Shown: piece by piece, positions 6,777-40,514 of the stretch
How the letters are laid out: each line of letters starts with the position of its first letter
Position numbering within the stretch: position 1 is the first letter of the stretch
Assembly: GCA_016987375.1 (NCBI GenBank)
Contig: PJRA01000343.1
Location: forward strand, 904,140-968,139
From: Brachionus koreanus
Taxonomy: Eukaryota; Rotifera; Eurotatoria; Ploima; Brachionidae
DNA: 64,000 nt
Reading direction: 5' to 3'
The notes under the pieces: generated by a model
What the model was told of the DNA's origin: nothing
Database searches by the model: none
Seen by the model: the letters and a program-made list of their open reading frames with translations, nothing else
Position numbers and translations under genes: made by a program

Positions 6777-9700
6777 AAATTATTCCCTAATCAAATTTAA
6801 AAATAAAATCAAAGTTTTTTTAGGTCTAGATTTTTGAAGGCTTTATCTTTCAAAGAAAAAAAAACAGTCAATATTGACATTTGCTGGTTTTTTTGAATTA
6901 CTTAAACTTATGATATTTTTAAATCGATTAATTGAATCTTTAATGATAAATTAATGGATGTAAGATCCTAGGCAAATAAACACACAATGTTCAGAATATT
7001 TATCTTTTCAGCTAAATCTTCTAATATGAAAGGTATTAAAAATAAGTTTTCGTTTATGATTTATGTTTGTTTCATAATAGACCTTCAATTGTATTCGACA
7101 AATGTATTTGCATTTGATTATTTAGTCTGATGTTTTCAAATTTATTTCAATAAATATTTTAGCAATTCTAAACGATTTATATTTAATAAAAAAAAAACTT
7201 TAAATTCTTGACAATTTTTAATTTAGCCTAAAATTAGACTCAGTTATTTTTTTTTTTTATAAATTTATTGTTGTTCAATTAGAAAAATATTGTTTAAAAG
7301 AAAATTAATTTATCAAAACCAAATCTTTAACTAAAATAAAACATTAGGTTGATTTTTGATTTTGCGTTTTTATCTAATCTTTAAAATGCTATGAAGCTTT
7401 TATCCATATATTGGCAGAAAATTCGATTCCTGGACCAGTTAGCTTTTCAACTTTATCCGAGCTTCTACTTTCTGTATTGTGTCTTATGATATCTTGAAAC
7501 AAAGCAGACTTCCGGTTGACTTAAGTAGAATATTTTCACATGAAATTTCTCCTTAAGCACAAAGAGTTAGCTATTTATCCAAGCTTCCTCTATAAATAAT
7601 TATTTCTTCTTTTCTAATAAGGTACTAATTTCTTTTTCTAGAATCATTTTGAACAATGAATCCAATCTGACACAGAGGTTACTGCATCAACTTAATTGTT
7701 TACACCGCAATTATTATCCAGTTTTTGATGAAGGGGGTTTAAAGTGCAAAGAAATTTATAATCCTCGATCCTCTGCTTGAATGACTAACACACAAACCAA
7801 TCTCCTATATGAACCAGTTTAACTATCTATAAAGGTTCTATCCTAAATCTGGTAATTGACATGTACTAAGCTTTAGGAATTCTTTCTAAATCCGAGTACA
7901 AAGCCCTAAAAGCACCAAAATTTCAAAATTTTCATCTAAAGTTCTTGAATCAGAGTTAAGCATTTTGATTGATAAATTTTACTTAGGAAAAGACTAGGTC
8001 TACTCTTTAGAATCTGAGTGAAAATTTTTTTTTTTTATCAGTAAGTTGGATTTAAAAAAAATGCTCAAAAAATATTTTCATTAGTTTTTTTTACAAATGT
8101 AGCAAAAAAAAATCGTCTTTTGCCTGGATTTGGTATTGAGCACATATGCTCGCAAAAACTGTGATATTTCTTTAGGTTTATTAAATACTGCTGTTCAAAG
8201 AAACGAAGATTCACATTTTCATGTAAATATTTTTAATTAATGTTGTAAGATAATTCAAACGAGCTTCAATTAGGTTCGGATTTCAGCATTCAATTACTGA
8301 TTAGTTCATTAATTCAAAATGATGCATCCCGTTTCAATTAATATTATGTATTATTTCTCTAACATTATTTCAAATCATCAAAAAGTCAAGTCTAACTAAA
8401 AATTTGGCTTACTCAATCATTTAGATTAATCATTATTTTTAAGTAACTGTTTGATATTGCACCAAATTGCATCAGCAAAACAACAAAGAGAAAATTTTGA
8501 CTTTAAAGTAGCTTAAATACAATCCATTATTTCAGTTATTACTTTGTCTATTAAATTAATTTTAAAGCGACAAGAACATTTTCCGAACAGGAAAATATTG
8601 CATGCTAAATAACAAAATAAAGTATTTAATTTATATGATGTTGATTTATTAAAATAAGAAAAATGAAGTTTTATTGTACTATTTTATTATGCTTATGTAG
8701 AATTATTTTTTATTAACTAAAAGCTTTAAAATAATTTAAACAATGCACAAAAAAAATCAAAACAAGAAAGTATGAATGAGATCAGTTCAAAATTCAATTA
8801 CTATTTGAACTAGTGAATTAGTTTTGATCAATAAATTCTAAGTATTTTCCGAATGAGTTTATTATTTTGGCCTAATTAAAGATCATAAGAATTACAAAAT
8901 TAAGCTCTTATGGGTAAGAAAAAGGGCCTAGAATGAAATTATTTGTATTTTTAGTTTAACAAGTAATAGTTTTTTATTATTAATTTTAAAATAAAATAAA
9001 CCAGTAGCGTAGAAAAGGCAAAATTTTGTTTCTCAACAATGTGTTTGCAATTAATATATTAAAAATATTAATCAACAATGAACTATTGCAATAAAATCTA
9101 TTGAAATAAATAGAGTTTTTTAATTACTTTTTTCTTATAGTTTATCACTTCTTTATTTAACAAAAAAAAAGAGATCTAAAGCAAGCATTCTTAGAAACAA
9201 ATAAATTTAAATGTTAGCTTTTTTAGAATAAAATTTTATCAGTAAAAAAAATAAAAAGTTTTGTTATTTTTAAAAGTTCTTATCTTCTTTCATTTGATTC
9301 TTTTATTTTTGGAGAAAAAAAAATATTTAATAGAGAGATACCAAGATAATTTTGATTATAACAGTGAGAGAGTGGAGATATGTAGAGGCTTTAAAAAAAA
9401 GAATCCTCTAAAACGCTTTTTTTAACAAAGTTTATAGCTTATTCAAAGCTAAAATAAATTTTTTAAATATTTATGAAATTAATATACTAGAAAGGAGTTT
9501 TTTTTAAAGTTGAAGTAGTTTGAACGCAAATAAAATCGAATAGAATATATGACTAAATAGAAATTGTTTGTCAAAATATATGAGAATTTCAACTTTGAAA
9601 ATCTAGTCTAATGATAAACTTTTTTTTTATCGTTCTAATTCAGGAGCATTTTTCAAGATATCTTTTTGGCGTCTGTCTTGATTATTGGGTAAAAAATCTC

Positions 9701-10610
9701 CTAATTTTGAGTGTTGAATATTCAAGCAGATGAAAAATATTTCAATTAATTTTCTTCATTTTTTGAGTTTTAAATGAAAAAAATTTAATTTCATTTAGTA
9801 GGTTTAAGGCTATTTTAATTTTTTAAAACAGAAGGCCTAAATTAAATAAAGAAGAGAATTTCACCCTTTATCAAAACAAGAAATAGAATTAGACTAATCC
9901 TTTTAGAATTATTTTTTATTATCTATAAAAATTAAAGAAAGATAAATTAAAAAATTAAGTTTATTTTTGTTTATACTTGTAGTTAGATAATTTTTGTCAG
10001 TTATATAAAAAAAAATTTCGGATATTAATAAAAAATTTAAACGTTTTATTGAATAAGAATTATTGATTTGAGAAATAAATCAAATTGTATTGTAATTATT
10101 GTCTGTTAAATCGTATGTCGTTACAAAATAAAGATTATAAAGTAGTTTCAAAATTTTGTTAATATAAATTTTGTTTTTTTAAATCTGAAGGAGCATTAGT
10201 TCGGTACAGAATAAAAAAAGGAGAGACTGGCTCTCCAATTATGATTATTATGACCATAATTCGATAGCAAAAATTTACTTTTTTTTGGAAACAATATCAT
10301 CATTTTTTTTTATTTATGAAATTATTAGCATTTAATTACCAAAATTTTTTAAAAATAAAAATGAATATCTTAAAATTATTTGATTTATTAAATAAATTTG
10401 TTATTTAAAAATTTCAAGTTAAAATAGTTTAAAAATTAACAAAGTTATTGTAAAAAAATCAATTCATTTTTGTTGTCTTCTTTTAAAAGTTTACCGGTTT
10501 AAAACTGCTTTAGAAACCGGTTCTGAAATTCAAATTTTTTGTTTTCCTGACAGTCATATACACACTGCTTTTTTTTGTTGCTTTTAGAACTCTTTACAGT
10601 TAAGATTATA

Positions 10611-10716
10611 TTTCTGATCATTTTGAATTAAGATTTTAAATCATTTAAAATCTTACCTCAAAATGATCAGAAAGGTTCTTGCCTTAACACAATAGTATTG
10701 TGAAAGGGCAAGAACC
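10611..10716. repeat. Two adjacent long hairpins
   Basis: Hairpin 1 (10611-10673) pairs TTTCTGATCATTTTGA with TCAAAATGATCAGAAA, and its inner ATTAAGATTTTAAAT also pairs with ATTTAAAATCTTA. Hairpin 2 follows immediately (10674-10716), pairing GGTTCTTGCC with GGCAAGAACC around a nested CACAATAGTATTGTG palindrome. Two abutting near-perfect stems are unlikely in random AT-rich DNA, so a mobile-element end or a structured RNA precursor is possible. Confidence 0.55.
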
Positions 10717-11989
10717 TTCCAGTATATCTAACAAAAATTATTTTAATAAGTAGAAAAAAGATTCAATTCTTCTATGAAAAATGATTATACTTTTTCAAGC
10801 GTAAAATAATTAATTTAAATTAGGTTTGTGTTGATTTTAAGGTCTTTTAGAAAATTTAAAGATATAAAAATATTTTTTAAATCTTTCTAATATTTAATAG
10901 AATCAAATTTTTTTTGTTTTTTTATTTGATGAGCAAAATTTTTAAATTTTAGTCACGAAATTCTTTTTTTTCAGATATTACCAGATAAATTTTACTTTTT
11001 AGTTGAAAAAAAAGAGTTAAAAACTTAGTCTAATAAGATTAATAAAAGTAATTTTTTTCTAATTTTTCATACAAAACTATTAAAAAAAGTTCTATCTCAA
11101 AAATTCTCATTTAGAAATAAAGCAAATTGAATATTTACACGCGCAACCAATATTAAATCTTTTATAGAGATTAAAACTCTTTTTCTTAAATTAAACAGAA
11201 AAACTTTCAAGTCACTTAATTAATATTTGTAATTTTTCCATTGTTCAAATTGATATACAGCTGATATAACGTATCCCATTAGTTAAAAGTGAATCAAATC
11301 AAAATTTAACTGATGTAATGAAAGTAATTTACTACTCTTTTGTTGTTTAAATTCTGATTATGGTTTCTTAATTATGATTCTTAGAATTTTAAATTACTAA
11401 ATCAAACAAATCGCTCTGAACACCGCCACGAATTTTGTAATAAAAATTAACAAGGAAAACTTAAAATAACTCTAAGATTGCCTTTTAAAGCATTAAAATA
11501 TAAAGTAAATATTAAATTTTTTATTCATTTAAAATAAATGTTATCTTGCACTAGACATAAACTAATTGTTGTTTTTCTAGAAAAATGCTTTTGAAATTAA
11601 ACTTGGATTTTTGTTCATACTTACTTAAATAAACAAAATTAAATTTTAACTATTTTGTTTTCATTTTAAAAATATGAATCATAAAAAACTCTGAAATCGA
11701 AGAAACTTTGTTTATTTGAAGATATTTTTTAATGAAAAAACAAAAATATAACAAGAAACTTTCTTTTAGAATTAAACAAGGAACTCTTAAGATTTTTTAA
11801 ATTTTCCTGACTAATATTAAATTAGAAAATAAAAATTTTTTTTTTTACTAAAATTTAATTTATGCTTTTTTTTCCAGAATCTGGTTTAAACCAAAATATT
11901 TAATTCCGTTAATTAAATTAAACTAATAAAATGAAACAAATTCCAGTGACATAATCACAATTTTTTTTTTCGAGTTTTAATTATTGAAT

Positions 11990-14900
11990 ATGACAAAAAA
12001 AATTTTTCTAATTTTTATAACATTATTTTTGTGTCCTGATGAATTAAAGAGCAATTATTCCCCTAACAATGTTAAACTAGACATATCATATAGCACAGAG
12101 TTTTATGATTATATGAAAGTCTTGGTCGAGCCTGATAAATCCATTTTATTCTGGTCAAAAAATCAATCCCACATTTTTTTTGAAATACATGTCCGACTTG
12201 ATGGCTGGATTGTTTTTGGTCTCAGTCCAAACGGTTCTTTGAATGGTTCCGATGTAATAATTGCCTGGTTGAATAACAATGGTATAGGATATTTTTCAAG
12301 TAATGCTAAATCTAGAAAGACAAAGTATACTACTTTTTTTTGTTAGATGGTCATATTGCTGATGAAATGAAACTGAATTATGATATAGGCTTTGATTGGA
12401 AATTAATTTATTCAATGCGTAATGATGAAATAACAGTTTTTAAATTAGTTCGTAGAATTAAGTTGTGTAATCAAAATAATAACAAACTCGCATTCAATAA
12501 AAATGGAAATTATATGATTTTTGCTTGGGGAAATTTGGATCAAGAAGTTTATTTTAACAATTCAAATGAGAAATTATTTTTTGATAGTTTTGTTAGCGAA
12601 AATTTTGAAGTAAGTTCTGATTTCTCAATATTTAATTTAATTAAAAATGTCAGTTTATTTATTTTATTAAAAATTATAAATCATTAATGAAAATAAAAAC
12701 TTATGTCAGTTTGATAGTCCATTTTCTTTAATTAATTAAAATGTTTTTCATATTTTCAAAGTGTGAAAGCAATGATTTAAGAATAAAAAAGGAAACTTTT
12801 GGTTCAAAACCAGTCGAAAATTACGAAAATTATGCTGAACTTCAAAAAGATGCTTATCATTTGTATTGGAATATATCAAATGGTTTTCTAATTGCTGAAA
12901 TTCATGTTAAAACAATTGGATGGGTTGGATTTGGTATTAGTCCTGATGGGAAAATGAGAGATTCAGATGTTTTTATCGGATGGGTTAGAGATGGAAAAGT
13001 ATATTATTCGGTAATATATTTGTATTTTCTTTTCTAAACAAGATATATGTTATAGGAACACATGTTTTCCTCAAAAACAAAATCAATTAAATTCATATTC
13101 TTAATCTAAAAGCTAAATTTTAATAAAAATTTATCTTTATCTTTAATAAATAACGTAATCATCCGAATTTAGTCACAAAAGAATCTTTTACATGTTATAA
13201 CAGCGTGTCACTAAAATAGAGTACTCTATTTTAAAGACATGTCATTAAATTCGGAAAATTACGTTATAATAGAATATTATGAGTAAAAAAATTTCTCATC
13301 AAAAAATTGCGTGAATATTAGTTAACGCCGCACTAAAATCTCAAAAAAAAATGATTTAAGTGCCTAAAAAAAATAGCTTTTTTGTTTTTTTTCAAAATAA
13401 AAATTTAAAATTTCGAGATTTAGAGAAGATAGATTTTAAACTTTACTACTTTAAGCCATGAAAATTCTATTTTTTTAAGGCACTAAAACCAAATTTTTGT
13501 CGTTAAAAACATAGATTTGTAATATTTTTTAACTTTTCAAGTAAAATTTTATCCCTAAAATCAGTAAGAATTTCTAGGTTGAATTATAAATAATTGTCTT
13601 TTTTCTACATATTTGGATGAATTAAAATTAAAAACATTCATTGTTGCAACTTTTTTCCATAAAATATTTTTTCTAATAAACAAAAAAAAGACAAAAAATA
13701 GAACATCAATACAATTTAAATTGATTTGTCTTCCTGAAATAAAAAAAGGTTAAGTTTTATTTTAGATAAACAAGCTTTGTTGCAACAAAAAAGTGTGTTG
13801 CACTTTGGTGCAGTATATTTTTGAATGTATTTAACTTTTAATCAAAAAAAGAAAGAATTTTTTTAAATTTGTATTTGAATTTCATAATACAGTTAAAGCT
13901 TTTTAACCCGAAATATCAGGCACCCAAAAAAGGATGGTTCGGATTAATTTTTCCGAATAAACTTTAAAAATTGGAATTAAAAAAAATTAATTACTTGCAG
14001 AGTAGGTCAAAAGTCATAGTCAAGTCTGTACTTCAAGTGTGAATTTTAGATTTAGAAAAAACGTATTTTTTTATTTTAAAAATAGAAAATCAAACAAAAA
14101 TGTCAATTAATAGAAGAGACCATTTAAAAAAAAGAAGTTAAATAAAGTGATCGTATTCTACTCTTTTTTAACATCTAAATTTAAATAAAAATTTTAGATT
14201 AAAGGATAAAATATATATGTTTTTTTTTTAGAAGATGCTGTAAAAATTTATATTTCAGTCAAATATTGAAATATTTTAAATTTTTAATTCGTCTGAATCT
14301 CTTTTAGCTTTAAAACTGTCTATATTATTGAAACTCAGACTTTAACTTTAGCTTAAAATAATTTCAAAGTCAAATTTAAAGTCTGACTTTGACTTCTGAC
14401 CAACTCTGATTACTTGATTGAATTTTAAAAACACTTTTTAAGACTTGAAAACTAATTTAAAATTGATATTGATATAACGTTTTATGAGTCTGATATTTTT
14501 ATCTAATAATTTTTACAGTTAAAAAAGCTTTGATTGTAAATTTTTTTATTTTCAAGTTATTTTTTCAAAAGATTTAGTCAATCTTATAAAATAACGGGTG
14601 TTCAAAAAGTAATGGCCGTTTTTTTTTAAATTAAAAAAAATAATTATGTTCCTCTAATCAAATGACTATAAAATTTTATACGAATGTAACTTAAATTCTA
14701 ATTTAAAAAAATTAATCATCATTTAATTTGAATGTTGTTTATTAATTGAATTAGACCAATGACATTGCCTAAGACCCTTTCATTAAAATGTCTCGGCAAA
14801 ATAATTTTTAGGAAATTAAGTTTTATATATCATCTTATAATAGCTAAATTATTAAAAGTAGAACAAGCTTGTTATTCAAGCTTTTTGAAAAACTTTTTTT

Positions 14901-17900
14901 GTATTTTAATTGAGTATTTAATTACAAAATTGATGAATTTATCTTATTTAATTCAATAGTTATGATCAAATATGCTAAAACACTCGAATTTTTAGCAACA
15001 AAAAAAGTTTACCGTTTTGTTGAATTAAGTAGAATAGAACAGAACAAAAAATTGAATATTTTTATAACTTTTTTCAAAATGATCACTTGACTTTAAAAGT
15101 TCTTTAAATGCAGCATGGTACAACATTCATAGTTGTATAATTGAGAACAATATTCTGGTAAAACTGTGCAAATTTAGCATAATATAAATTAAAACTTTTT
15201 CACTTTTTCTTCTCCCAAATGAAATAAAGTTATTTTATTATTTGCTTTTTGTTCCAAAATTCACAATGCCGATTAATTTAAATATTTATTTAAAAGAAAA
15301 AATTTAATAAAATATTTAAGGATAGATACGTTTATGGTCGTAGATCAATAAATGACATAAACAATGATATTGAGCTGCTGAATGCCTTCGAGTCTAAAGG
15401 CTATACAGTGTTCAAAATAAAACGACCATTGGTTCTATGCGATCCCGATGATCGATCCATTGAGGTAGTTTATTCAAATGAATAGTAATTTGCACTAAAT
15501 TTATTTATTTAGACGGGAACACCTTTTGTAATTTTTCCGTGGCACAATCATGATCCTGTAAACTCATATGAAATTTATTTGAACAATGATAATCAGTCAA
15601 CTCAATTAAATTTTTTCAAAAAAGATGTAAAAATTTATTCTGGTGACAATGAGCATGTTTATACAATCAATTTACACAAAAAAATAATTCCTGTAAATTA
15701 TTTTCAATACTGTCAAGCTTTTCAAATTGCTAAAAATCTAACCAAAAAACATATCTATAAAGTAGTTAAATTGAGTAATTTTAGTTTAATTTAGAAAGCT
15801 AATTTATTTGTTCACAAGTGGTCAATTGAACTACCTCTGATTGATCCTCATTTAATTGCAGCTATAAAGCTTTATGAATGCTCACATGAATATTTATTTA
15901 CTAATGAAGTAAACTGTGATCTAAGCTTGAATTTAGCTTTTTGCAGTGAGTCATCAATAGGCTGGAGTCCAGGCGCAGAGCTAGTTGTCTCCTTTCCGGA
16001 TGACACTGGCTATCCAATTGGCGCAGAAACTGATTATGGTTTTTTCATATTGAATGTTGAATTTATTGACGACGAACAGCCTTTTAGTAATATTTACATA
16101 AATAATTTTTTACTAATTAATTAATTTTTTAATAAATAAGAATTCATTGATAATTTATCTATACATTTTTACTTGACTGATATATTGAGAAAAAATGAAT
16201 TGGGAAGTGTTACTTTGGGTACTGAGTCCGATCCTCTGGGAATATTGATTCCTCCCGGTCTTGACCGCTTTCCTGTCAATACATATTGCTTTAATTCATG
16301 CTTTGAAAATGTGAGATAATTTTAATGAAAATCGCTTTATTTTAAACTTTAATTAGCAGAAATTTGACTACGTTACATTTGTAATGGCTAGGCCGCAAAC
16401 CCGTTTAGCTGGTATTCAAATATTTACCAAAATAATACGAAACAAAACAGATTTTGGTTATTTGCACAAAAGTCTCAATCACAATCACAAGTTACAACAT
16501 TTTTATGAACTAAATCCACGAGTGGTTGTCACTAAAGTAAATACTTAAAATATTACTAATAAAAGTTTAAAAATTAAGTTATAAAAAATTGCAAGTTTAG
16601 GCATTATTCTGCATTCATAAATCGTTTAAATAAACTAAATTTAAATTAAAATTAACCCAGAAAACAAATCCTAATAAAAATCTTAAGCACGACATGTCAA
16701 GTTCTTAATCCAGGACGTTATAGGATCCTAAAAGATTCCAAAAGATTTAAGATTCTTATGCTTTTCTTGAATTTTCTTAACACAAACTTTCTCTAACTTA
16801 TAAGATCTTATAAGATTCAAACCAGTTCTTGATTGACTTTCTTATGAGTTTTAATTAACTGATCCTTTTTAGATCTTAAAAGATCTTATAAGTATGAAAA
16901 ATTTTGTGCTAAGAAAATTTAAGAAAATCATAATAATCTTAAATCTTTTGAAATCTTTCTAGGATCCTTTACCGTCCTGGATTAAGAACTTGACATGTAC
17001 TGCTTAAGATTTTTATTAGGATTTCGTTCCTGGGAAGTTTAACATTGAGTGCTTACTCTAAAAATATGCTTCTGCAATAAATTTTTTACTCAAAAATATT
17101 TTAAAACCTTTTTTCAATGATTTGATCATAAACTTCAATTTGCTCAAATTTAATCAAAATTTGATGCAAAGTTAATTTTTAAAAAAGGGTTTCAAGTATA
17201 TTTACACTAATAACAAGTGTAAATAAGTTAAATTTGATAAATTAAAAAATTGAATTTGAGAAAATTTTTTTAAAATCTACTTTTTGATTTTTTTTTTATT
17301 ATTTGCTAGGATTTTCCCACATATCACAATTAGGTCTGGTATACAATGTATCCCAAGCCTTTCTATAATATTTTAATCAATTAATTTTCTCAAGATATTT
17401 CTAGTATTGAAATTTTTAATATAAGAAATTTGGGTTCAAAAGAATCGTAGTCCCGTAGTATCCATGTGATCTTGTAACCACAGTTAACATTAATCATCTT
17501 CATTATGAAATTAACCGAGTAATGACTAAGTCTATTCAGATGTGAATTTATGTTACTATTTGTTTGGAAATGAATTTGTAAAGCAACAGAATGAATTTGA
17601 AGAAATAAAGATAAATGTTTAGTCAGGCACATTGTCTTACCCGATAAAACTAACAAATATTGTATATTAAATTTTGGCTTCAAATTAGAAGTTTTGAAAA
17701 AAATTCTCGAAAATTTTCCTTTCTAATATTCTTTATCTAAAATCTTGGATTTTGATGTTTAAACGTTTTATTGATCAAGAATGACTTTCTAGTTTTTTCA
17801 TCATAATTGCTGAAAAAACCTTCTTTAATAAGCAAATTATACCTTAATTAAATTTATAGTTTGTAAAAGATATTTTAAAAAATTTTATTTCTATCTTTAA

Positions 17901-18811
17901 CATGTTTTTGGAGCAAAAGAATAATAAATAATAATAATAATTTTAAAATGGGTGAGATGGTGTTAAATGGTGTTAAATGAGTTTACTCTCAATTCTCAAT
18001 CAAAAAGAATTAAGAAAAATTTTGCTTTCCAAAAAATATTGAATATAAATTTTAATTTTAAATCTAATTCTTTTTATTTAATTTAATTTTATTTATTTAA
18101 GAATGACAGTTTAATCACCCAATGTGTTTATTCAACAAAGAATTTAACAAAAATAATTCAAGTAAAAATTAAAAAAATAAAAAATTTGAATAATTTTAAA
18201 ATTAAAAAAAATCAAAGGGTGGATTGGGCCTGAATAAAGAAGTGTGTTTGTATAGTTATTTTTATTATCCGCGTTTAAACAATTTTAAAACATGTAAATC
18301 AATTCCGACATTCAATGACCAGATGCGAGTCTTCAAAAGACTCAGAGAGTTAGTTAAAATATTTTGTTAATATTAAAAATCTAAACCATCTTTTATTTAG
18401 GCAAAATGTTTTAAATTTCACAAATTTTTTTAATAATTCCAAACTAGCTACACTTTATGAAGCGTATGATAGTTTGAATAAAGTTGAAGAATTTAATGAC
18501 AGTCTGCTTCAGAGTTTTTTTTCTATTTATTTATCAAGCAATTTCTTCGCCATATGCGATGTAAGAATTTTCTTTTAAATTTTTTTTTAATTTCTTGATT
18601 TTTATTTTAGGGTTCATTCAACTATGAGTCTCATGAACGTTTGCTGGTGAAAAGTTTTAGCCAAAAAATGGACCAATGTTATTTGAAAATAAATAAACAA
18701 AAGAATATATTGTCTCTATTTACTTCGAAATCAACATATGTAAAGCAAAGTTTTAGTTTTATTTTGTTTTTTCAAAGCGCAATAATTGTTTTAATAAAAA
18801 TATTGCTTTAA
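11990..18811 (+). CDS. DBH/MOXD1-like protein with two DOMON domains; copper ligands absent
   Basis: Twelve exons reconstructed from frame and GT/AG sites: 11990-12299, 12347-12609, 12762-13010, 15321-15464, 15513-15761, 15795-16086, 16141-16310, 16357-16536, 18102-18161, 18218-18348, 18401-18560, 18611-18811. They total 2409 nt and 802 residues, and all phases match. The ATG at 11990 starts a signal peptide (KKIFLIFITLFLCP). Two DOMON domains follow: exons 1-2 (GWIVFGLSPNG) and exons 3-5 (GWVGFGISPDG, YTVFKIKRPLVLCD). The N- and C-terminal halves of a copper type II ascorbate-dependent monooxygenase come next (YCQAFQ, LYEC, WSPGAE, TGYPIG, IPPG, EVCLYSYFYYP). A hydrophobic C-terminus (FFQSAIIVLIKILL) suggests a membrane anchor. 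Family copper ligands are all replaced: the VHH pair by AA (~427-428), the HY His by Glu (~494), HTH by QTR (~573-575), and the EMC Met by Val (~648). Structural cysteines are kept. It is probably a secretory-pathway pseudoenzyme. Introns 3 and 8 carry transposon debris. Confidence 0.82.
13151..13266. repeat. MITE-like foldback element
   Basis: TAACGTAATCATCCGAATTTAG at the left and its near reverse complement TAAATTCGGAAAATTACGTTA at the right bound a 116-bp unit. An inner palindrome, AAAATAGAGTACTCTATTTT, sits at the centre. Terminal TA dinucleotides are compatible with a TA-targeting (Tc1/mariner-type) miniature element. It is inserted in an intron. Confidence 0.6.
14592..14626 (+). mobile_element. 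Mariner-like terminal inverted repeat (single end)
   Basis: The string GGGTGTTCAAAAAGTAATGG followed by CCG and a T tract resembles the outer ends of mariner elements (a GGTnnGTnCAAAAGTAATnGnGG-type consensus known from Hsmar-like families). I find no matching opposite end nearby, so this is probably a truncated or solo end inside intron 3 of the DBH-like gene. Confidence 0.45.
16652..17042. mobile_element. Foldback/MITE element with long inverted arms in a TTAA site
   Basis: Arms of about 105 bp pair: the left starts CCCAGAAAACAAATCC, and the right, read on the minus strand, starts CCCAGGAACGAAATCC. Both continue through CTAATAAAAATCTTAAGCA, CATGTCAAGTTCTTAATCC and CAGGACG. TTAA flanks both sides (16652-16655 and 17039-17042), with four extra bases at the right end. 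TTAA duplication with C-starting ends is the habit of piggyBac-type elements. The surrounding sequence continues an older repeat whose uninterrupted copy lies at about 43003-43190, where a single ATTAACATTG marks the empty site. Confidence 0.72.
17043..17150 (+). repeat. Dispersed repeat, copy 1 (interrupted)
   Basis: AAAAATATGCTTCTGCAATA followed by AATTTTTTACTCAAA and TTTTAAAACC matches the copy at about 43078-43190 almost base for base. The homology resumes left of the foldback insert at 16598-16651 (TCTGCATTCATAAATCGTTT). Its nature is unknown; no coding potential is visible. Confidence 0.6.
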
Positions 18812-18849
18812 AATATAATTTTATGAAAAATATAATTGTTTAATTTTCT

Positions 18850-19205
18850 TCTTTCGATGTCAGAGAAAAAGTTTTGAACAGCAAAAAATTAAAAACCAAT
18901 CTGCAAAATATTAGAAATTTATGGCCATTGTGAATTTTGAACAAAAAAAATATCTAACTTTGGTAGCTTTTTTTCGATTTTAAATTCAGTCGGTAAATTG
19001 TACCATTTGATAAAAATTTGTATTGAATGCAAATTTATTTTCTGCAATTACTCTGCATTTTATCTTTGATAGTTTTTAATAAGTATAGTCCGTTGCACCT
19101 TTACAAAGTTATCAAATAGTTGAATTTGGGTGATAGGGACTTTTTATCAACTGATACAATTAAGAAAGCGAATTTTAGATCTTTAGAAAAAGAGTTTTTT
19201 AGTTT
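18850..19205. repeat. Diverged copy of the 2414-2690 repeat family
   Basis: At 18922 CCATTGTGAATTTTGAACAA matches the flank of the 2365 element. At 19147 TTTTATCAACTGATACAATT and the following GCGAATTTTAGATCTTTAGA read, on the minus strand, like the left arm near 2417-2480 (TTTTTCTAAGGATCG ... TATCAACTGATACA). Similarity is partial, so the boundaries are approximate. Confidence 0.4.
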
Positions 19206-19281
19206 AGTTAACATAAATGTTTGTAGAAATAATCATATCAAATAAAAGATCAAATTTTAATTATTAAACTAGAATTAAAAA

Positions 19282-20043
19282 AATGGCTTTTCTAATCAAA
19301 AATGAAAATTTCTGTTGAAAAGCCATGTTCCCTTGTCAAAATACAACAACAAATATCCTGATTTTGATCTTAAGTAATGAATTTGCAGATCAAATTGTCG
19401 CAACTCAATGTTTTTAGAGATTTATGTATTTTGATCTCAGACCACTTCAAATATTGAAATCAAATCAATTATTCGGTATATTGGTCGGACATTGAATTTT
19501 ATTTTAGATGTTAAATTAATAGCAGAAAGCTGATGTTGCTGAGGTTGTGTGATGATAATTCAACGATTTATACCATATACAGGCATTAGAAAAAAATTTT
19601 CAATGCAATAAAAAAAATATTTATCAAAATTCTATCATCATATAAAATAAAATCAAGTTTGTAATGAACACAAACTTAAATTATGGCTTTTCAAATGAAA
19701 AAAAAAATTCTGTTGAAAAGTCATGTTAAGTGGTCTTGTCAAAATACAACTAAGAATATCCTGTTTTTGATCTTAATTAATAAATTTGCTGATCAAATTG
19801 TTGCAACAGAATATTTTTAGAGATTTATGTGCTTTGATTCCAGACCATTTCAAATATTGAAATCAAGTCAATTACTCGGTATAATGGTTGTACATTGAAT
19901 TTTAAATGTTAAATTAACACTAGAAAGCTGATGTTGTCTGATGAGAATTCATTGAGCTATATCAAAGATACAGGCATTAGAAAAAATTAATCAAAATTCT
20001 ATCATCATATAAAAAAAATCTAGTTTATAATGAACGAAAGCTT
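19282..20043 (+). repeat. Tandem duplication of a ~400-bp unit
   Basis: Unit 1 (19282-19680) and unit 2 (19682-20043) share long blocks in the same order: CTTGTCAAAATACAAC, AATATCCTG, TTTAGAGATTTATGT, CAAATATTGAAATCAA, AGAAAGCTGATGTTG, ACAGGCATTAGAAAAAA and AATTCTATCATCATATAAA. Each unit opens with a short hairpin (ATGGCTTTTC ... GAAAAGCCAT in unit 1). There is no open reading frame, and divergence suggests an old event. It could be a two-copy satellite, a duplicated non-autonomous element or a structured non-coding RNA. Confidence 0.7.
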
Positions 20044-20859
20044 AAAAAAATAAAATCAATATATTAGCTTGGTTAAATAAATATTTGCTTTTTTTTTGTT
20101 TTTCCTAATAAATATTTTCGATGCTGCTAATTTAAATCAAAAAATGTTTCGTTTGGTAACAGACACTTAAATTTTTATTTATGATAAGAAAAAAATACCA
20201 AATAATAAACTAAAGTCGTAAATAGGATAAAATCAATTTTCTTTTTCAAAATAAAAAAAATAAAACACTTAAATTTATAATTTTGTATTCTATAACAGGT
20301 GATCTTCAGATTTAAAATACTAAATAAATTAAAAATACCTTGTCATAGAGTAAGACATATTGTCAATGAGTAAAAACCAGCATGGGAATTTTTTTTGAAT
20401 ATATAGCAATGGTTTTCAATGGCAGAAAATAAAAAAATAAAATTTTGGCTGGAACATACTGGCTTTTCTTTATGTTGAGAAATACTTCTAGATTAAACAA
20501 TGCTTAAGAAATCATTTTTGAATATCAAAAAAACTTCTTGGCTACCTTTGAGTGTTATGTACTTTATGCCATGTGAAACAATGTATTTCAAGTTCTTGTA
20601 TGCAAATTTTCAAAATTCATCTCGAAAAAAAAAAGTTCAATTTTTTAATGTTCATTAAAATGTTCAAAACATTTAAAAAGACAAAATTGCATGAAGTAAA
20701 TAAAAGAAGCACGATAGATGAAAATACTAGGAGCAATACTAGGATTCAATGAAGTCATTGACAATAGATGGAAATAAATAAAAAAACTATAGCGTGCTGA
20801 TATAAAAAGAGAGATATTACAAAATTTGTTGATTTGATTTTTCATTTCTTCCATAAATA

Positions 20860-21178
20860 TGGATACACTTGTTTTCTTATACCAATTTATACTATCCATT
20901 TTATTTAGTTCTTTATATTTCTGGATTAAATCACCTATAATGCGTCTCAATTCAAAGCTAGTTGGACCCAAAGTCGTACAACTTTCTCCATAATTTAAAT
21001 TCCTATTTAATTTAGGTATTCTAGTTAACCATACAGGCATATCATTTTCAAGGTTTGGTCTAATATAGCAAATATAAAGTCTTTTCCATATATCAGTTTC
21101 ACGTGTTTTAAAAGTTTTCTTCAATATACTAAGCTTAAATAGTAAACCATTGTGTGTTACAGGATCGACGAAATTCAA
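20860..21178 (-). pseudogene. Non-LTR retrotransposon reverse transcriptase relic (C-terminal part)
   Basis: The minus-strand translation includes LYICYIRPNLENDMPVW and LRRIIGDLIQKYKELN. These match the post-catalytic region of CR1/L2/jockey-type reverse transcriptases (RLYxxYVRPxLEY...W, RRxRGDLIxTYK). The canonical VQRRATK block between them is lost and the N-terminal catalytic domains are absent. It is a dead, 5'-truncated fragment. Confidence 0.75.
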
Positions 21179-22536
21179 GAATATAATGTCAACTTTTTGT
21201 TTAATTGATATCTTATATGTGCTAAATAGTCGATTGTTTCTAGTTTCTAGATTGATTTAGCTGATAATTTATTAAGAACAAATGTAAACCATCAACACCA
21301 TAACTTTTTTCAGCCATATGACATATAATAAAAATATGACATATGACATATCTTGTGGCAACTTCTTGTTTTCAAATATTTAAAAAAGTTTATTTAAAAT
21401 CCACATTGTTAATTTTTAATTTAAATATTTTTAATTAGATAATGTAAGTCACTAAATTCTTAATGCTTCAAAAATTCCAGCTTTTTCTGATTCCTTTCTC
21501 TATCTGTAGATTTTTTTTTTACTTTTTTTCACTAAGTTTGCTTAGTTCTTAACTGTTTCCAATTTTATATGTAAAATTGAATCTACGAATTTAACAAAAA
21601 ACAAATATAAAAAATTTACTAAAAATTGCCATCTTTTCAAACTATGAAAAAATCTATTTTGAAACAAGTTAATTAAATTTTAATCAAAAAGATTTTAGGG
21701 AAAGTTTTTTTTTCTGTTTTTCATCGAAATAATTGGTATAAGATAGTGTATTTCATATCTTTGCTTTCAAAATTGTCCGAATAGATTTATTTCCAAATAA
21801 ATAATCTGATGTTTTGTCAATATTTTAAACTTCGAATCCATTCAAGTAATTTTGGATGATATAGATGAAATTGTTTAGTTACAGTTATTTTTTTTTGGTT
21901 TTTAAAAATTTAAATTTGGGGAATTTTTTGATTTAAGCAATAATTTTTTATCAACTAAAAATAATTTTTTTATTTTTTTCTGATATCTAACAATACTTGA
22001 GAGAAAAACAAAGCAACAAAAACAACACGTTTTTTAGCTGTTTTTTAATTTTTTTGTGGATATTAATAGAAATATTGAAATAAAAAAAAGATTTACTTAT
22101 GTATTAAATACCTTTTTAACTTATAGTTTATTAGAATTTAATGAATAAATAATTTGTCTCTAGAAAACGTCATTCCAAATTTTTGTTTAAATAAAGCCAA
22201 TAATGTTTATTTGTATGTAAAATTTCAAATAAAAATTCTCAATAATCCAAGCATATCCAGCATTTAAATAAATATCAATGATTGATTTTCATTTTTTGGC
22301 TCATATTTAACTTAATTAATAATTAATTGTTATTAATGACTTAAGACGAAAACTAATAATTAACTTAAAACTAATCTTTAGATTGGAAGGTTAGCTAATA
22401 TTAAAAAAAAATAAAAAGAATTTTCAGAATATGTTATGATCAATTAGTTGAATATAAAATTTCATAAACGTGGAAAAAAAATTTTTGGTTATTATTTCTC
22501 TTCAATTGCAAGCTGCAATTAAAAAATAGATAACAG

Positions 22537-24901: not shown

Positions 24902-27900
24902 TTAATCGCTAGTTTCAGATTTGACTTGAGAAAAATACATCGGATCTGAAAATATCCATTTTTGAGATTTGCTGTCAGGGTCACAATTCATCGTCATTAT
25001 TACTGAATTTCTTAGTTCACTAATTCCCAAACAAAGACCAGATCCTCGGTTTTTTAAAAATTTTCTATGTTCATCGTAATCCCACACTTGAAGCGCTTCG
25101 GATTCTCGACAAGTACTTAATTTTACTGTGCCACCTTTGACTGTAGATTCCAAACACAAACCCATACCTATTAGATTTTTTTTTATCGAATATTCAATCA
25201 TTTGATTTCCTCCTTTTCCATGACACGATGAAGCTCCGCAGTCTTCGCCACTTTTTCTTTTTAAAACATCCAAACAAAAATTATATTCTTCATTTTTTAT
25301 CTATTAATAAATAAAATTTTAAACAAAATGATTTATAAATTATTTGAATTTTTCATACACTTCCTAGATGATAATAGTACAAAGGTAAATGTGTTTCAGG
25401 ATAAATATTGTCCAAATACCATCTGAAAGATTTACATTGTAATTTTTTTCTTAATTCAACTCGGTTAGTTATGTTTCCAGCTTCAACTGTTAGCAAGTCT
25501 GGCATAACATTGTAGAAATATTTTGAGTATTCATCGGTCCATACCTCAATAACTCGTCGTGTGTTTCGGAAAATTACTTTATTGGTACCACCTGGAAATT
25601 TGTAAGGCGTTTTTTTTCTAAAAACGTGACCAACATGACTACAAGGTAGAATCAACAAAGTTCCGCCACACATCCAAATCTTAAAAATATTGTCTCACTT
25701 TACTTTGCTTAAATGAATTTTTTTTCTAATAAATACTCTGAGAGACAATTCGATGTTTTCAGCACCCCAGATATCCATGCCTTCGTCATAAGCACCAAGT
25801 TCATAGAAAAAATTCCTTTCAATAACAAACAAGCCGCCAGCCATTGTTGGAGTTCTAAAATTCACTAAATTATATAAAAATTGAACTTAAAATTGCAGTG
25901 TCAAGATGAAACAGAATGACTCAATCCTGTCCTGATATATATATCTCACTCAACTCAAAAAGTCGTTTAGAGACTGTTAGTAATTTAAGTTTTTTATTTG
26001 ATTATTTATTTGATTAAAATTTTATTATTTTAAGTGTTGAATTGCATCGAGTGTTTTTAAAACATTTACCATTGGGCTAAATGTGAGTTTTGAGTCAAGC
26101 TTAATGCTTAACTTTTTCTTCACATTTTAAATTTTAAGGTCTAAATTAATTTTTGATTTAGTACATACTTAGAGAGTGCAGTGATGTTATGAAAGAGTGC
26201 AGTGAACCGCTGTCTTTTTGTTTAAATTATCATTCGAGTCTAGTATGATACCAGCTTGTTGGAAAAGAGCTAATGTTACTTCAGTATACAAGAAGAAAGG
26301 TTGTACAACAAATCATGAAAACTACCGTCCAATATCGTTTTTATCGATATTAATAAAAATAATGGAGAAGCTAATAAGAGATGAAATGGTAATGCATTTA
26401 TCGGAACAAAAATTACTTTCTGTTCATCAACATGGTTTTATGCGTGGTAAATCCTGTGTAACCAATTTGTTAGAAACTTTAGATATAATCACTGAGGCCC
26501 TGAATAGAGGATTCAGTGCTGTGGTAGTATTTTTAGATTTCTCGAAGGTGTTTGATCGCGTTTTGCATAAGGTACTAAAGATCAAGTTAAACAGCTATGG
26601 ATTCACCGGAAAGCTTTTGGTGTAGCTCGAAAATTTTCTACAAGATAGGAAACAGAGAGTAATGATAGGTCAGTATAAATCTGATTGGGTTGATGTGCTA
26701 AGTGGGGTTTCACAAGGTTCAGTTCTTGGTCCGTTACTATTGACAAGATGGTTGAGTGGTCGAAACGTTTGAGTATGGAATTTAATGAATCTAAGTGTAA
26801 AGTAATGTATATTGGCAACTCAAAAATTGCTAGGCAAAAAATCTCAATGTTAAGTGCAGATAATTTCAGAGTTGAATTAGCTGAGACTAATGCTGAGCGC
26901 GATCTTGGTGTAATTGTGAACAACAAACTCAAATGAAATGATCAAATTGACATCTGCGTTAAAAAAGCTAACAACATGCTTGGTATGCTCAATTGTTTTT
27001 GCAGCTTTACAAAACATATGTTAGAAGAGGGATATATTTAGACTTGAACAAGTACAAAGAAGAGCAACGAAACTTGTTCCACAAATAAGAAGTTTGAATT
27101 ATGAGTCAAGATTAGCTAACTTGGGATTAGAAACAATAAAAGATTGGCGAGGGCGTGGAGATCTTATTCAATTTTATAAAATCCACAAAAATTACAATCA
27201 TGTCAATTGGTACTAAAATGCGAAACTCATGAGCTCAGTGAAAAATGAAAGACCAAGTGGAGGTGTAAGAGGAGCAAAGCATCGCATATGCTCGAAGCTA
27301 ACAAAATGTGAAACAAGACGAAACTTTTTATCAAATCGAGTAGTGAACAATTGGAATGTGCTGCCAACGTAGCGGGAGTAAAGAAGTAATCCTATCAAAT
27401 GACATAAACGAATTTATCAAAGTGGATTCTGAAACTCCAATTCATTATTATTATATAAAAAATATTGTACCTTAAAGGTAACGATTCGTCATTACTTCTT
27501 CTGAGATCTTCACGCTTAGGCACTGGTACCCAATGAAATACAAATTTTGCATCAAAACCTCCATAGGTTTTTTCCGAGCCGGATGCATAACCAAAATTTT
27601 GATATGATATGACATCTATTATCGGATTTACAACTGCTTTTCTATTACGAAAAAAAAAATTTTAAATGAAAAAATAATTAATTTTTAAATAAAAATTCAA
27701 AAACCTATTTTTTTTAATTTCAAATAGCAAAGGCGGCAGCCATCCATTTGTGCATTCAATATGAGCATCAAGAAACGTGATTGTGTCCCCACTGGCCGCA
27801 TTTGCACCCCTCAATCTAGATCTCATTAAACCCATGCGAACCTGGTTGCGAATTATTTTGACCGGCACAGGCAAAGTTTTAACAAATTCATCAAGTGGTT

Positions 27901-39299: not shown

Positions 39300-40280
39300 A
39301 TAATAATAATAATAAGCTACTGCAGACTAACTGCGGAGCAAGGCGATAAGTGCCTTGCTATGGTAGCTGTCTGATTTAACATAAACCTTAATAATGATAA
39401 AATATGTTAATAGAAAAAATTAATTATTTTAGTTTCAAATAAATATCCAGTTTGTTTTTAAATTCATTCTTGGATTTTGCGTTAGCAACTTCAACTGGTA
39501 AAATGTTCCACTCGTTTACCACTCGATTTGTCAAGAAGCTATTTCTGTTTTTGTTTCTTGTCAGTTGTTGGGTCAGTCTTCTTGGATGTCCTCGGATTCC
39601 TCCAGCTGGACCATTGGTTGATAGTGCGTGACTTTTAATGTACGGATTCTGTAGATGAATTTCACTTAGACCGTTCATTATTTTAAATGTCTCTATTAAG
39701 TCTCCACGTTTACGTCTTGTGTTTAGTGTCGTTAGTCTCAATCTTGTAAGTCTTTCTTCATATTTTAAATTTTTTAAGCTAAATACTAATTTTGTAGCTC
39801 TTCTTTGTACTTGTTCTAAGATTTTTGAATCTCTTTTAGTATAAGGGCTCCAGGCTGCTGCTGCATATTCAAGATGTGGTCTAACAAACGAAACGTACAA
39901 TTGTTTGAATGTATTTAATGACCAGCATTTGAAGGCCTGCTTTAATTGACCCAGAACTGCGTTGGCTTTATTAGCCGCTTGTGTCGTTTGGAGAGTTCAT
40001 TTCAAATTATCTGTTAGATAAATTCCAAGATCTTTTTCGACTTTTGTTTGGGGGAATGGGTAAGTTGTTCATTGATAATTCGATTTCATTAATAGATTTA
40101 TTTTTGAAGAACATAAATTTGCATTTGTCTTCGTTAAATTTCAACTGCCAATCGTCCGACCATTTAACAATTCGGTCAATATCTGTTTGCAACTGTTCAA
40201 CATCAAGACGGTTTCTAATGATATTAATCAGTTTGGTGTCATCCGCAAACAGTTTGATTAAGCTTGTTGAGACGATAATC
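39300..40280 (-). mobile_element. 5'-truncated CR1/L2-like retrotransposon (best-preserved copy)
   Basis: On the minus strand the RT resumes at about 40278 with SLIKLFADDTKLIN, keeping the catalytic FADD (~40240), then VKWSDDWQLKFNEDKCKFM. A frameshift near 40000 follows, then [45 protein letters not shown] and RNSFLTNRVVNEWNILPVEV, to the TAA at 39424. The 3' UTR (39300-39423) has a GCAAGGC...GCCTTGC stem and ends in five TTA/TAA repeats at 39301-39315, the classic microsatellite tail of this clade. Everything upstream of motif C is missing. It is the youngest-looking copy here but still defective. Confidence 0.88.
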
Positions 40281-40514
40281 AAATGATAATCAAATAACTT
40301 GAAAAATATAAAATTTTTTATTTGAAAGATATCAAATCTATACAAAATTATTTAACAAAATAAAATAAAATAAAATTTTAAACATTAAATAATTTATTAT
40401 ATTAATAATTTGAGAGAAAAAAAAGTTAAGATGATTAGATATTCGGCGACACATACTAAAAACATTACATCTTTTTACACAGGTGTCTCAACAATGAAAC
40501 ACTGTAGAACAATT

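Follow-up and report, generated by a model that had tools for sequence, protein, structure and literature searches.

A tandem-DOMON DBH/MOXD homologue without copper ligands in the rotifer Brachionus koreanus: a probable pseudoenzyme kept by selection

Can a protein with the fold of a copper monooxygenase be kept by selection after every residue that holds the metal has been lost? This question is raised by a gene at positions 11990–18811 (+ strand) of the window, the whole stretch of 64,000 nucleotides of Brachionus koreanus DNA analysed here. The initial annotation described a DBH/MOXD1-like product of 802 residues, encoded by 12 exons in an open frame. Splice sites served to rebuild the gene model, which was then corrected against relatives in the same genome. 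The 12-exon frame is borne out, as all 11 introns have GT-AG borders and the 793 codons contain neither a stop nor a frameshift; the length is not, since the product has 793 amino acids once the acceptor of exon 6 is moved. When boundaries are set by eye and the stop is counted, 802 codons are obtained, in agreement with the earlier figure. In that uncorrected model, however, intron 5 is 33 nt long and eight extra residues appear that are absent from the aligned paralogues. With the acceptor at 15818/15819, intron 5 measures 57 nt, exon 6 starts at 15819, and the junction HIYK/WSIELP is colinear with HIYKYEFIFP in paralogue L027 and HIYKWELVFP in paralogue L030. This intron occupies the same alignment column, in the same phase, in four paralogues (L030, L031, L034, and L032). 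Introns 5 to 11, which lie downstream of the second DOMON domain, all have a counterpart in one or more of eight tabled paralogues, placed at the same column in the same phase or a few columns away; the four introns further upstream have no counterpart in these eight. Two of the introns of the window gene are long (2310 and 1565 nt).

Pfam detects two DOMON stretches in the window protein (whole-protein E = 4.6e-40), together with Cu2_monooxygen (1.6e-10) and Cu2_monoox_C (2.6e-21). Both copper-monooxygenase domains, N and C, score above the Pfam curated cut-off, which identifies the protein as a homologue of the DBH/MOXD/PHM family, and the N-terminal DOMON domain, a trait of the DBH/MOXD branch, is present in two copies. 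The DOMON pair was absent from the initial description of the gene. Exon 1 (11990–12299, residues 1–104) encodes a signal-like N-terminus and the start of DOMON-1, the remainder of which lies in exon 2 (12347–12609, residues 104–191), an exon colinear with L027 and L030. DOMON-2 begins in exon 3 (12762–13010, residues 192–274), continues through exon 4 (15321–15464, residues 275–322), and ends in exon 5 (15513–15761, residues 323–405), where the CuH-type domain starts. The latter extends through exon 6 (15819–16086 with its corrected start, residues 406–495). The CuM-type domain starts in exon 7 (16141–16310, residues 495–551) and continues in exon 8 (16360–16536, residues 552–610), which is followed by the short exon 9 (18102–18161, residues 611–630) and exon 10 (18218–18348, residues 631–674). 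The C-terminal region is encoded by exon 11 (18401–18560, residues 674–727) and by exon 12 with the stop codon (18611–18811), whose product has a hydrophobic end as judged by hydropathy.

Human DBH (structure 4zel) aligns with window residues 224–668 (E = 4.2e-28), with 101 of 441 aligned residues identical; alignment positions were converted to DBH numbering by adding 39. The copper ligands of DBH are named as H262, H263, H333, H412, H414, and M487 (PMC4846438). None of the six is kept in the window protein, and the substitutions are those that the initial annotation had claimed. In exon 6, Ala419-Ala420 (15858–15863) stands at His262-His263 and Glu486 (16059–16061) at His333; in exon 8, Gln564-Thr-Arg566 (16396–16404) replaces His412-Thr-His414; in exon 10, Val639 (18242–18244) occupies the position of Met487. 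To turn codons for His and Met into these six takes a minimum of nine base changes under the genetic code. Because all six ligands are gone, the chemistry known from the family, copper- and ascorbate-dependent hydroxylation, is not expected of the window protein. Much of the framework of the fold is preserved. Ten of the 11 DBH cysteines in the alignment are kept, the exception being C212. Every one of the ten aligned DBH disulfide cysteines, among which we take C394 to belong, is present; the aligned stretch does not reach C565, C596, or the intersubunit C528/C530. The available text of PMC4846438 mentions no bridge for C212, but names most of the other disulfide positions. In DOMON-2, all six metal-site aspartates, termed conserved in PMC4846438, are still Asp, and five of them are encoded by exon 4 along with C314.

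Two family searches of the genome returned 12 loci including the window locus, which was matched by the N-domain model only, and all 11 others were compared with it. These paralogues keep the ligand at all 66 of their positions, against none of six in the window protein. Owing to two pairs of close duplicates (L030/L031 and L032/L033), the 11 loci amount to about nine independent genes; further family copies are possible, as six-frame searches can miss genes split into short exons. A tblastn search with the window protein located a DOMON pair in L027, L030, and L031 and a single DOMON in L028, L029, L032, L033, and L034. Of the 12 family loci found in the genome, four carry tandem DOMON domains ahead of the copper domains (in the window at 11990–13010 and 15321–15761), and within the 10-kb stretches compared this arrangement marks a subgroup. 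A tree of DOMON-2 and the core, built from 14 rows (the window protein, part of human DBH, the 11 paralogues, and the predicted protein P0001, with the predicted protein P0002 left out), groups the window protein with L027, L030, and L031 (100/99) and places L024 beside human DBH (86/84).

Two of the paralogue pairs have features of their own. L030 and L031 (G000:C24) lie about 10 kb apart on opposite strands, as inverted copies of one intact monooxygenase gene with tandem DOMON domains. Their proteins are 99% identical in both DOMON regions and 91% identical in the core, which hints at a recent exchange in the 5′ half. L032 (G000:C5) and L033 (G000:C53) are near-identical but located on two contigs, and L033 carries two frameshifts relative to L032; a haplotype copy, a pseudogene, and an assembly error are candidate explanations for L033.

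Among invariant residues, the loss is selective for the ligands. Invariant columns were defined as those identical in the 11 loci with no more than two gaps, counted from window residue 200, which gave 35 columns. The window protein keeps 26 of the 29 non-ligand columns and none of the six ligand columns (p = 5e-5); the same test on the nine DBH/MOXD-type loci gave 37 of 42 against none of six (p = 4e-5). The three non-ligand invariants that were lost are H277, Y387, and N489, the last lying three residues after the H333 position. On the count of 26 of 29 against none of six, a chance loss of the ligands was judged unlikely. Cysteines common to L027, L030, and L031 are likewise retained (12 of 14, including C726 and C750). 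Constraint on the protein is uneven: of all residues common to these three paralogues, the window protein retains 36 of 75 in DOMON-1 and 56 of 92 in DOMON-2, 62 of 100 in the CuM part but 26 of 55 in the CuH part, and 8 of 31 in the C-terminal region.

A codon model was fitted to 714 codons of the window gene, L027, L030, and L031. For the whole gene, omega = 1 on the window branch is rejected (2ΔlnL = 81), this branch spanning time before as well as after the loss of the ligands; by region, 2ΔlnL on the window branch is 46 for the core, 9.4 for DOMON-1, 15 for DOMON-2, and 4.7 for the C-terminal region. When omega on the window branch was left free, for the gene and for each region, synonymous sites were saturated and the length of the window branch lay at its upper bound, so that the fit is usable for rejecting omega = 1 but not for estimates of omega. 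The terminal branch of the window protein is long (1.24, vs 0.26 for L027). The lineage is fast yet constrained, as would be expected if one function had been lost and another kept or gained.

A view of the time after the loss is offered by P0002, a predicted protein of 90 residues represented by one member sequence and two contigs, the longest of 39,096 bases. It shares 74% identity over 80 residues with exon 6 of the window gene and at most 45% with the 11 paralogues, and is for this reason a probable orthologue of that exon from another species. At the three ligand positions that it covers, P0002 has Arg, Ser, and Glu, and so keeps none. The search for an orthologue sharing the ligand losses, which the initial annotation had proposed, yielded this probable orthologue for one exon. 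The Glu found at the H333 position in both proteins suggests a single common loss, while the CuH pair, Arg-Ser in P0002 and Ala-Ala in the window protein, indicates that these two sites are now free rather than themselves held. In both sequences the frame stays open into the adjoining intron, with 58 of 78 exon positions identical but 2 of 11 positions of the intron tail (p = 0.0005). In a neutral simulation with base frequencies taken from the two long introns, 74% identity was reached at 0.12 changes per site; with half of this divergence on the window lineage, a mean of 10.1 stops arose in the gene, and none of 400 runs was free of stops. A search that relies on shared five-residue words and on a predicted protein of matching size gave no candidate for the orthologue's CuM half, which is weak evidence of absence. 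Taken together, the loss of the ligands, the kept core, the P0002 exon, the stop-codon argument, and the omega test point with good confidence to a pseudoenzyme kept by purifying selection on a fast branch. That selection continued after the ligands were lost is indicated by a single exon of the probable orthologue and by the argument from stop codons.

Several other accounts of the locus were weighed against this reading. If the gene had been silenced recently and were decaying without having yet met a stop, its fast branch would be accounted for, as would the former CuH pair not being alike in the window protein and P0002. Such decay is nevertheless improbable, given the 793 intact codons, the selective retention of core residues, and the conservation of the P0002 exon but not its intron, over a divergence for which the simulation expects about ten stops; in preferring selection to decay, the initial annotation is upheld by the P0002 exon, the core residues, and the rejection of omega = 1 alike. 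The Glu486 common to P0002 might instead signal a protein that is still an enzyme, using another metal or another chemistry at a site remodelled with Glu, Gln, and Arg. We consider this very improbable, because the six positions leave no metal-ligand set and the replacement of the CuH pair by different residues in the two species is unlike a conserved new site. A wrong splice model that conceals ligand-bearing exons is scarcely credible. The two long introns could hold alternative exons, but every ligand site falls within an exon colinear with the paralogues. A six-frame scan of positions 9000–22000 with four motif patterns yielded four matches, of which the two on the + strand both lie outside the gene, and tblastn with five paralogues (E up to 5) gave matches outside the exons of the window gene only at E = 3.1 or worse; the alternative splicing that could have restored the VHH, HTH, and EMC motifs, flagged at the outset as a check, was found by neither route.

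A further rival concerns the role and lies within the pseudoenzyme reading itself: the protein could be a dead regulatory subunit that modulates the active paralogues (L027, L030/L031) by pairing with them, or one that competes for their substrate. Its closest kin in the same genome do keep all ligands and have the same two-DOMON layout, and human DBH is described as dimerising via its C-terminal domain (PMC4846438). However, the C-terminal region of the window protein is the most diverged, at 17% identity to L027 and to L030 over 93 codons against 32–47% in the other three regions, and no cysteine between residues 656 and 726 matches C528/C530 of DBH, although L027 is also without one there. 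A dead subunit is on balance unlikely.

For the pseudoenzyme kept by selection, we propose that a MOXD/DBH-type copper monooxygenase gene with tandem DOMON domains was duplicated and that one copy was then stripped of both copper sites and of the chemistry known from the family, after which selection would have retained this copy for the folded body of its protein. A signal peptide and a C-terminal anchor had been predicted for the product, and by hydropathy both ends are indeed hydrophobic. The N-terminus is signal-like and resembles that of L030, while the best 19-residue Kyte-Doolittle mean at the C-terminus is 2.42, vs 0.92–1.25 in the three nearest paralogues. The 14 N-glycosylation motifs, a number that an Asn-rich sequence may in part owe to chance, would suit an extracellular or luminal location. 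The protein may enter the secretory route and most likely works by binding, either secreted or held at the membrane by its hydrophobic C-terminus; a small molecule, sugar, or protein partner could be bound by the two DOMON domains, by the empty cleft that separates the former copper domains, or by both. In other proteins, DOMON domains bind haem or sugars. The structure paper on DBH terms this domain of largely unknown function and proposes room for a small molecule (PMC4846438). A tethered binding protein is a plausible, if tentative, role, and the sequence favours none of the receptor, carrier, and adhesion roles suggested initially over the others. It is rather doubtful whether the gene represents a conserved non-enzymatic DBH/MOXD lineage, that is, a tandem-DOMON, membrane-tethered receptor or carrier whose former copper cleft is a putative binding site, possibly with a Glu486-Arg566 latch. 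As a guess, these two residues could meet across the closed cleft; the copper sites of DBH are reported to be about 14 Å apart in the open form and 4–5 Å apart in the closed form (PMC4846438).

The neighbourhood of the gene looks ordinary. Six of eight ORFs scanned have Pfam matches (glycosyl transferase 2, ricin-type lectin, prefoldin, WSD/PHD, bromodomain, and reverse transcriptase) and two have none. The reverse-transcriptase fragment (RVT_1) lies at 26206–26625 (+). By eye, 39424–40351 (−) resembles a retroelement remnant, but its ORF at 39424–39996 has no Pfam match.

Among the matches listed in a literature search of titles and abstract openings, with most subscription journals outside its scope, no intact DBH/MOXD/PHM homologue was described as being without copper ligands. 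MOXD2 is reported to have been lost from birds, apes, and whales through disrupting mutations and deletions (PMC4830563), which is a different case from an intact protein without ligands. The window gene is a clean natural separation of fold and catalysis in the DBH/MOXD family: a copper-free member kept by selection, if confirmed as such, would mean that the protein body has a task other than hydroxylation, and the genome's own intact paralogues provide matched controls for finding that role. These controls, L027, L030, and L031, have the same two DOMON domains and an identical domain order, but differ from the window protein in keeping all six ligands, in their shorter branches, and in having no hydrophobic tail. 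A protein search with window residues 200–790 gave P0001 as its sole match, which likewise has a DOMON domain and both copper domains. Unlike the window protein, to which it is 27% identical, P0001 has a single DOMON and keeps three of the six ligands, the others being replaced (H262 by Asn, H412 by Gln, and M487 by Leu). It seems to be a separate, partial loss, and ligands have apparently been lost more than once in the family. With human DBH, the window protein has the DOMON, CuH, and CuM domains in common; it differs in the disappearance of the six ligands, in an extra N-terminal DOMON, and in its hydrophobic C-terminal end.
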